Source: Pempheris klunzingeri
Taxonomy: Eukaryota > Chordata > Actinopteri > Acropomatiformes > Pempheridae
Assembly: GCF_042242105.1 (NCBI RefSeq)
Contig: NC_092014.1
Coordinates: 7,103,874-7,167,873, forward strand
Length of the DNA stretch: 64,000 nt
Direction of reading: 5' to 3'
The translations under genes and the position numbers were made by a program. Shown here one piece after another: positions 41,501-44,500 of this stretch (position 1 is the stretch's first letter; each line of letters begins with the position of its first letter). The notes beneath the pieces are model-generated. The model saw nothing but the letters and a program-made list of their open reading frames with translations, did not search any database and was not told the DNA's origin.

Positions 41501-44500
41501 ATGTGATGCGTGTGTGTGTGTGTGTGTGTATCTGCATCTATTTATGCCTTATTGACCTGAGAGAAAATCCACAGGACGTTATGTGATTTCAGTGTTAGCT
41601 TAAACTTTTAAAGAGAAGGGAATAAGACAGAGCCATGCTAATGTTATTTTTCCATGGTGCTACATTGAATAGGATATACACTCACTTGGCCACTTTATAA
41701 GGTACATCGTAACATCTAAAGCCGTCCAATACAACAGCTCAGCCATATGTTTTACATTTACAAAGATAATAAAAGTTTTGACTGCATTGCTTTTGAATTA
41801 CAAACATGAGGAGGGAAGAATATTAGAAACACATTTGAACATAATGCAGTTCAGTGCACCACCACTAACCACAACCTCAGTAATTAACCTTATTATTTTG
41901 TCAACACTGTCACAGGTATTAATTACCTGTGACCGCGTCGACAAAAAAAATAACAATATAATAAATTGTAATCTTCCTTGTGGCACAATTGTTTGGGATT
42001 GCTTTAAATGTTATTGGAGGCCACAGAAGCCACAATGAGGGTTATATCTCACCTACTACCACAAAAAGTTTGTGATTAATTGTTAAGTGTGGGTAAAGTA
42101 TTACAACAAACAAACCAGAAAACAAACGCCATACAATTTTTAATGCAGTATAAAATTAACAAAACAACAAAAAACAAAAAATTATTTTAATCACAGTTTC
42201 TCACATCACAACATGTGTAAACAGGATTAAGAGATGATATTTAATGTATTGTGGTTTGACATTTTTAAAGTTTGATAAGACTTGTACTGAAGCTCACAGT
42301 AGTCTCGGCCTCACTGTGTGTGCTCTCAAGGTTAGAAGGTGGTACAGGTGCGGCCTCATAAGAAAAATGGCGGCCAAAGTGAAATGCTTTGCACGTAATG
42401 CTGGTAAAAATTTCAGTTGCTGTGGCTCATCCCATTGTGTGTTTCTTCCAGGTGAATCCACAGCTTTTCAGCAGCAGAGAGAAGGAGCAGATGCGAGAGC
42501 TGATCAACACCATGCTGGCATACAACCTCTCATACAGGCAGGACCGCACGCCCGAGGGACAATACACATACCTGCTGGAGCCGTGAGTACACACACACAC
42601 ACATCCACCTTCACTCAACTGTGTGCTGCATGTGGACCCATGCAGAGCTGATGTGTGTTTCTGGGATGTTGAAGGTCACTGCTCTTGTCCACGCTGTGGT
42701 TCTCTGCATTGAGGCTTAGAGAGTAATCCCTTTAACACCTGGTGTGTGTATGATGGTAGTGGTCTGGGATCAGATTAGCAAATCTCACTGCAAGGTTACA
42801 GGTGGATGGACGAACAGATGACAGGATGGGTAGAGGAGGTTTGAGTTATTAGAGCCGTGAAATTAGGGGGTCATTTTGGAGAAAGCAATCTGAAATATCG
42901 AGGCTTGTTAAAACAAAAGACAAAAGCTAAAAGGAACAAGAGGAAACTTTAGCTACACTACAACTTGGGAGACCTTTGTTCATCTTGGACCTTAATTTTT
43001 TGTGACTACTAAGGTTGGTAGAATGAGATAATTAATCATCTCCGCATCCCAGCCATGCCGGCCCAGGTTGAGGAGCAGCCAGACGCCCAGGGGGGCTCCT
43101 TTCTGCAGGCTCGCTGTGATGAAGTGCTGGTCACCAACGACTGGTGCCTGCCTGTAGTTTTAGCTCTACTGCTGCTCCTGCTGATCTACACCTTCCTGTA
43201 CCTGCCCTCTCTGGCTCACCACAACACCACTGTCTGACACCAAACGGATAAAGACAAAAACGCTCCTGACAGCAGATACGCCCAGTCCCAGCAGGATTAT
43301 TCGGTTGGACTGCTCCTTTTTTTTGGAAACTGTTGTCGATTGGTCAGACTGTGGCAGAATTATTAACGTTGCCTGGTTTTGGACGCTGTGAGAAGGAAGA
43401 GGTGGCGGGAAAGATGAAGACTATTCATCTCATTCATTACAAATCCTTCTGCTTTTGGAAACAAAAGACATTTTAAACCCATAACCGTTGAGTGCTGTAA
43501 CACAGAGCTTCTACCTTTTGGTCTATCGCTAAACATTCTCAGTTTTCTGATAATACGTGAATGCAGTCACTCCTATATTTGCTTGAATATTTGTTTTAGG
43601 AGTGTAAAAGCACTATCAAATGAATCTAACACTAAGACAGCTAAATATAAGTATCTTAAGATTGATTTTGATATCATAAATAATGTTCTCTCTATTAAGT
43701 AAACGGATATAAATGTGTTAGCCAGATGTTAAAATACTCAATATTAGCTGCATGGAGTATAATCCGGTATGTTAAAGGGGGAAGTGAGCCTTTCAATCTT
43801 CTTTTTCATTAAAGTTTTGGTGATAACGGAACTGATTTTTTAGATAGTGATAACTCTACATTAAATAGCTCACAGTGATATAGACTGGTATTATCTTATT
43901 TATATGTACTTATATTTAGATTCATTACGTATTGAGTCAGAGTTTACTGACATCCTGTGTGTGTGTGTGTGTGTGTGTGTGTGTGTGTGTGTGTGTGTGT
44001 GTGTGTGTGTGTGTGTGTGTGTGTGTGTGTGTGTGTGTGTGTGTGTGTGTGTGTGTGTGTGTGTGTGTGTGTGTGTGTGTGTGTGTGTGTGTGTGTGTGT
44101 GTGTGTGTGTGTGTGTGTGTGTGAAATGAAGATCAGCTGTAAGAGGATTAAGGTTTTAGAGTGACAGATTCTGGGTTTTATTCTGAAAAACATAAACCGT
44201 AGCACCAAAAGTGGAAGCTTTTTGGATTTTTGTTTGTCAACTAACAGAATTGACCCCTGTGTCAACCTCATGCTGTTATGAATGTGTTTGTGCAGAGTTA
44301 TTTACTTGGCATGTGTGTTTGCAGGCGTGTTGAGGAGGTAGTGAGGTTTCCGGGCCTGCCGCCGCGCCGTCAGCTGACATATCAGGCCAAACAAACCATC
44401 AGCAGAGAGATGGAGCAAGAGAAGATGAGGCGATCCGAGCAACTGATGCTGCAACGAAACCCTGCAGTGGTGAGACAAATACACAACACGCACATCCTAC

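Follow-up and report, generated by a model that had tools for sequence, protein, structure and literature searches.

A probable membrane microprotein gene nested in a chtf18 intron of Pempheris klunzingeri, with a conserved second copy on another chromosome

Same-strand intronic genes of fewer than 100 codons form a class that is easily missed by annotation, and a 60-codon open reading frame (ORF) inside an intron of chtf18 in the fish Pempheris klunzingeri raises the question of whether it is such a gene. The window, by which we mean the whole stretch of 64,000 nucleotides that was analysed, corresponds to C3:7103874-7167873, where C3 and C17 denote chromosomes and positions without a prefix are those of the window; searches of the fish's own genome covered 646 Mb.

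The host gene was identified through the two exons flanking the intron (42452-42582 and 44325-44469, both on the + strand), which were delimited by PDB matches, own-genome matches and in-frame read-through. When joined, these exons matched the human CHTF18 chains (PDB 8umt, E = 9.1e-29) and remained in frame across the junction, confirming the original prediction that the ORF is nested in a chtf18 intron; chtf18 exon sequence alone gave no Pfam family at E up to 0.01. The intron, assigned from the sequence and from the PDB match of its flanking exons, is 1742 bases long (42583-44324, + strand) and contains the complete ORF in the orientation of the host, as in a nested gene. A perfect (TG)84 tract lies in the same intron at 43956-44123, and a perfect (AG)74 tract elsewhere in the window at 49643-49790. 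A second nested arrangement was also seen in the window, in which fam83g-like exons (+ strand, approximately 19.3-25.1 kb) lie inside an SLC5A-type transporter gene (- strand, 14400-32200, with the first exon at approximately 32.0-32.2 kb and the last exons at approximately 14.4-17.9 kb). Both names were read from the frames, and the pair presumably resembles the nested arrangement of human SLC5A10 and FAM83G.

The ORF occupies 43055-43237 on the + strand (60 codons and a stop), exactly where it had been placed, and in-frame stops precede both it and the second copy on C17 described below. The GC content at its third codon positions (GC3) was 0.73, compared with intron GC of 0.44 on its 5' side and 0.36 on its 3' side up to the TG tract, in agreement with the high-GC third positions in AT-rich surroundings noted earlier. 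The predicted protein would have a half that is acidic at the N-terminus, followed by a single hydrophobic segment, and its last nine residues would form a tail with NTTV at the end. Its best 19-residue hydropathy window scored 2.66 at residues 32-50, consistent with the single transmembrane segment after an acidic N-terminus that had been proposed, and a transmembrane helix is predicted at approximately residues 30-51 (43142-43207). An AlphaFold model of modest confidence, built on an alignment of two sequences (mean pLDDT 62.9), comprised a short helix at residues 16-21 and a long helix at residues 31-59, whose best blocks averaged 82-83. Considered by itself, however, the ORF is not beyond chance, because dinucleotide shuffles of the intron, with ORFs built from the TG tract excluded from the counts, gave a + strand ATG-initiated ORF of at least 60 amino acids in 214/500 cases, and one whose hydropathy peak exceeded 2.0 in 39/500. 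The signals named in the original prediction are thus not decisive.

When the window protein was searched against the whole genome, one other significant match was obtained, a 74-codon ORF at C17:12185428-12185652 (E = 3.6e-12), and the C17 protein searched back returned the window ORF (E = 2.6e-12), making the two reciprocal best matches. This search scores the best candidates only (here five for the C3 query and four for the C17 query), and the remaining matches among the candidates scored in both directions had E values of 0.078 or worse: the C12 match (E = 0.078) belongs to a frame of 174 aa read as a multi-pass receptor, and those at C17:7.92 Mb (E = 2.75), on C11 (E = 0.18, two stops) and at C12:3.95 Mb (E = 6, one stop) were regarded as chance. 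The C3 and C17 proteins could be aligned over a gap-free core of 42 codons (residues 15-56 of the C3 protein, 43097-43222, + strand), in which 27/42 residues are identical, including FLYLP. MP are the first two residues of both proteins and an NTT sequon follows the helix in both, while their C-termini differ, with 28 extra residues on C17 and the NTTV end on C3 only; GC3 of the C17 copy is 0.74. Comparison of the 5' and 3' flanks of the two copies yielded no BLAST match with an E value below 0.1. Since the second copy keeps the frame, the start codon and the protein while the flanking DNA is not kept, the 60-residue ORF is very probably a real gene, and this conserved copy lends good support to the proposal of a separate small gene in the orientation of chtf18.

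The manner in which the two copies differ was evaluated over the core. Identity at codon positions 1, 2 and 3 was 28, 38 and 20 of the 42 codons, respectively, and the NG86 dN/dS, estimated from two sequences and about 35 synonymous sites, was 0.29 to 0.30 (dN = 0.28, dS = 0.93 to 1.08 depending on the method), a value of about 0.3 that is consistent with purifying selection on a nested coding gene. In a codon bootstrap where resamples with saturated dS were set to 0, the 2.5-97.5% range was 0 to 0.66, and a ratio of at least 1 occurred in 1/1000 resamples. When 40 random base changes were placed on the core, 19.4/42 residues were kept on average compared with the 27 observed; 27 was reached in 3/5000 draws, and a stop was created in 3216/5000. 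Of the six frames, the coding frame was the only one free of stops in both copies. Together, the codon-position pattern, the dN/dS and the single open frame are, as read from this pair of sequences, the signature of a protein-coding gene.

Regarding the transcript, the ATG lies in the context CCAGCC ATG C (43049-43058, G at -3), and its C17 counterpart, TACACC ATG C with A at -3, is likewise a favourable context for initiation (TACACCATGC). A branch-like TACTAAG was located at 43007-43013, upstream of the ATG as had been claimed. The original prediction also combined the G at -3 with a splice acceptor ending two bases before the ATG. Both are present in the genomic sequence (the AG at 43051-43052, + strand), but they are incompatible in one mRNA, because the G at -3 is the G of that AG. 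Since use of the acceptor would remove the G at -3, and C17 has no AG at the matching place (the nearest lies approximately 45 bases upstream of its ATG), the acceptor is doubtful and probably not used; a 5' UTR continuous with the ATG in one exon would fit better to both copies. An acceptor filter that we applied misses the chtf18 intron's own acceptor and hence says nothing on 43052. On the 3' side, the downstream ATTAAA of the original prediction was found as a candidate polyadenylation signal at 43808-43813 (+ strand), 570 bases past the stop codon, with a second ATTAAA at 43860; on C17, candidate signals follow the stop at distances of 335 (ATTAAA) and 1104 bases (AATAAA). No CpG-rich stretch was found at either ORF (observed/expected approximately 0.4).

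The neighbouring genes were then compared between the two chromosomes. The two chtf18 exons matched C3 only, among the best candidates scored in the own-genome search, and rpusd1, whose identity comes from a match to human RPUSD1 (PDB 5vbb, E = 5.3e-22), likewise gave C17 matches only; a 106-aa rpusd1 fragment, which includes some intron sequence, had no Pfam family with E of 0.01 or less. The start exon of rpusd1 was placed by means of a human first-exon sequence; it lies 4.3 kb from the C17 ORF in head-to-head orientation, and the same query gave no match in the window. Human RPUSD1 and CHTF18 are head-to-head neighbours with GNG13 behind CHTF18, so that the C17 copy would stand where chtf18 stands in mammals. 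The two neighbourhoods hence correspond as expected of ohnologs of the teleost (3R) duplication, with chtf18 on C3 only and rpusd1 on C17 only among the candidates scored, each beside one copy of the microprotein gene. CHTF18, RPUSD1 and GNG13 are placed in one chromatin domain in human in the excerpted text of PMC7279195. In the window, gng13 (two exons, 47596-48053, - strand) serves as a synteny marker standing tail-to-tail with chtf18, and its second copy at 8.82 Mb of C17 (C17:8819651-8822033) is 71% and 64% identical to it by exon. This is one further gene pair linking C3 and C17, although its C17 copy lies 3.4 Mb from the microprotein ORF. A perfect (TG)90 tract lies between the two gng13 exons in the window (47760-47939). 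Because of the placements of chtf18, rpusd1 and gng13, the two chromosomes resemble a pair derived from the teleost genome duplication.

In the stretches of C17 that were compared, no remnant of chtf18 could be seen near the second copy. For this comparison, window frames of at least 25 aa, low-complexity frames excluded, were searched against an 80-kb C17 stretch, and in the resulting 29 rows recognised coding parts were joined only in the microprotein row. Ten fragments taken as chtf18 (one of them probably intron) and gng13 gave best E values of 0.33 and 0.45 against C17:12181000-12205000. A multi-frame, both-strand similarity between 5447-5792 of the window and C17 at approximately 12217000 (best E = 5.8e-10) is probably a shared repeat.

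Neither the C3 nor the C17 protein gave a Pfam family above its cut-off, and sarcolipin/phospholamban-type families were not listed for either copy at E up to 10. A 'New_glue' line (E = 0.031) listed for the C17 protein scored 14.5 bits where the cut-off is 31 and was taken as chance. No PDB sequence matched the microprotein, and five of its peptide strings had no match in the literature searched. Nine stretches in viral contigs and 24 in prokaryote genome contigs fitted a sequence pattern, of which none was confirmed as a relative. Among the literature matches listed for nested-gene, intron and microprotein terms chtf18 was absent, and the excerpts of listed papers that join chtf18, rpusd1 and gng13 describe no nested gene.

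How else could these observations be explained? An untranslated ORF that arose in the intron by chance would agree with the shuffle counts, according to which ORFs of this length, and less often ones whose hydropathy peak exceeds 2.0, turn up in intron of this composition; but a second copy exists in which start, frame and protein are conserved, which leaves that explanation close to refuted, and we consider it extremely improbable. Somewhat less remote, though still very unlikely, is that the region serves as an alternative last exon of chtf18, spliced into 43053 and polyadenylated at 43808, with the ORF being part of a 3' end. The TACTAAG, the AG and the ATTAAA are indeed suitably ordered on the host strand for such an exon, but the ORF is constrained at the protein level in its own frame, and on C17 neither a chtf18 match, among the candidates scored, nor an AG at that place is seen. 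In addition, a chtf18 exon spliced to 43053 would be read, in a frame other than that of the ORF, for the junction codon plus five codons until a stop is reached; because of this wrong frame and early stop the ORF is not an in-frame chtf18 exon, and an alternative coding exon of chtf18 was rejected.

A different objection accepts the gene pair as real and attributes it to a later segmental or retro-copy between C17 and C3 instead of the teleost duplication. The proportion of synonymous differences (pS) was 0.54 for the microprotein pair (approximately 35 sites with biased codons), below the saturated 0.855 of the gng13 pair, and the ORF is the sole recognised coding part common to the window and the 80-kb C17 stretch, both of which speak for later copying. 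The lower pS may reflect codon bias or a duplication more recent than that of the teleosts, and the high GC3 of both copies lowers visible synonymous change. Against later copying, moreover, the C17 copy stands beside rpusd1 in the position and orientation expected of a lost chtf18, which a random insertion would reach by luck, and the flanks have diverged past alignment. We therefore regard later copying as unlikely, while giving it more credence than any of the other alternatives. As for the identity of the protein, a diverged small subunit of serine palmitoyltransferase, of the SPTSSA/SPTSSB type, is suggested by the sole Pfam line of the C3 protein, SPT_ssu-like (PF11779; E = 0.25, residues 34-55). 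Its score of 11.5 bits is far under the curated cut-off of 29.8, however, and the family is not listed for the C17 copy, so membership was rejected and such an origin seems hardly credible.

The explanation that we favour, and hold to be probable, is an independent nested gene for a single-pass microprotein whose nesting predates the duplication, followed by reciprocal loss of chtf18 and rpusd1 with the nested gene kept on both chromosomes. Under this explanation, 43055-43237 would form the coding exon of a small, independent gene oriented like chtf18 and already lying in the chtf18 intron before the genome duplication in the teleost ancestor. Subsequently, C3 would have kept chtf18 and lost rpusd1, and C17 would have kept rpusd1 and lost chtf18, with the nested gene surviving there without its host. 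We infer that the microprotein gene has its own promoter, because the C17 copy stands without a recognisable host. Counting against the explanation as a whole are the pS of the microprotein pair, lower than that of gng13, the single further gene pair that links C3 and C17, the lack of a CpG-rich stretch at either ORF and the differing C-termini.

A role for the protein can be proposed by analogy. The N-terminal half (SFLQARC[DE]E..DW) would more likely be cytosolic, because what few positive charges there are (R20 on C3; K4 and R10 on C17) precede the helix, although this half is net negative in both copies, which counts against the proposed topology. SFLQARC could be a membrane-near segment, acylated perhaps at its cysteine, and the helix, rich in leucine and bounded by P33 and P51, might act as a regulatory subunit by binding to a larger protein of the membrane. 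Of the roles considered, binding and tuning such a partner is the likeliest, which we put forward tentatively; the PDZ-like NTTV end is not common to the C17 copy. Opinion can be evenly divided on whether the pair represents an undescribed teleost (perhaps older) microprotein family, born in the chtf18 intron before the duplication, with one copy that has survived its host gene and a mammalian counterpart that was lost or is unannotated.

The C17 copy provides a control within the same genome, standing among neighbours of its own with no host that can be recognised, and the C3/C17 pair is compact material for asking how the protein acts and whether a nested gene depends on transcription of its host. 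Single-pass microproteins of vertebrates include regulators of the sarcolipin/phospholamban type and SMIM proteins; the present proteins are like them in size (60-74 residues), in having one transmembrane helix and in having no enzyme domain, and differ in that no Pfam family reached its cut-off. Precedents exist both for nested genes in fish introns that were duplicated and for nested genes that persist after their hosts are gone. In the excerpted text of PMC13378369, the gene for olfactory marker protein (omp; ompa and ompb in teleosts) is nested in capn5 and described as independently regulated. As proposed here, a small gene in a host intron was copied together with that host in the teleost genome duplication (PMC13378369, excerpt); omp differs in being antisense to its host and of known function and expression, and ompb was lost in some lineages while capn5 stays, whereas in our case it is the nested gene that persists on C17, where the host was not found. 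The LRRTM genes, which lie within introns of alpha-catenin genes, are a named leucine-rich-repeat adhesion family on the strand opposite to their hosts, unlike the same-strand gene described here (PMC3933685, excerpted text). They would share with it the survival of a nested gene after loss of the host, since lrrtm3 is found without ctnna3 in clawed frogs and the same has been proposed for lrrtm4 (PMC3933685, excerpted text).
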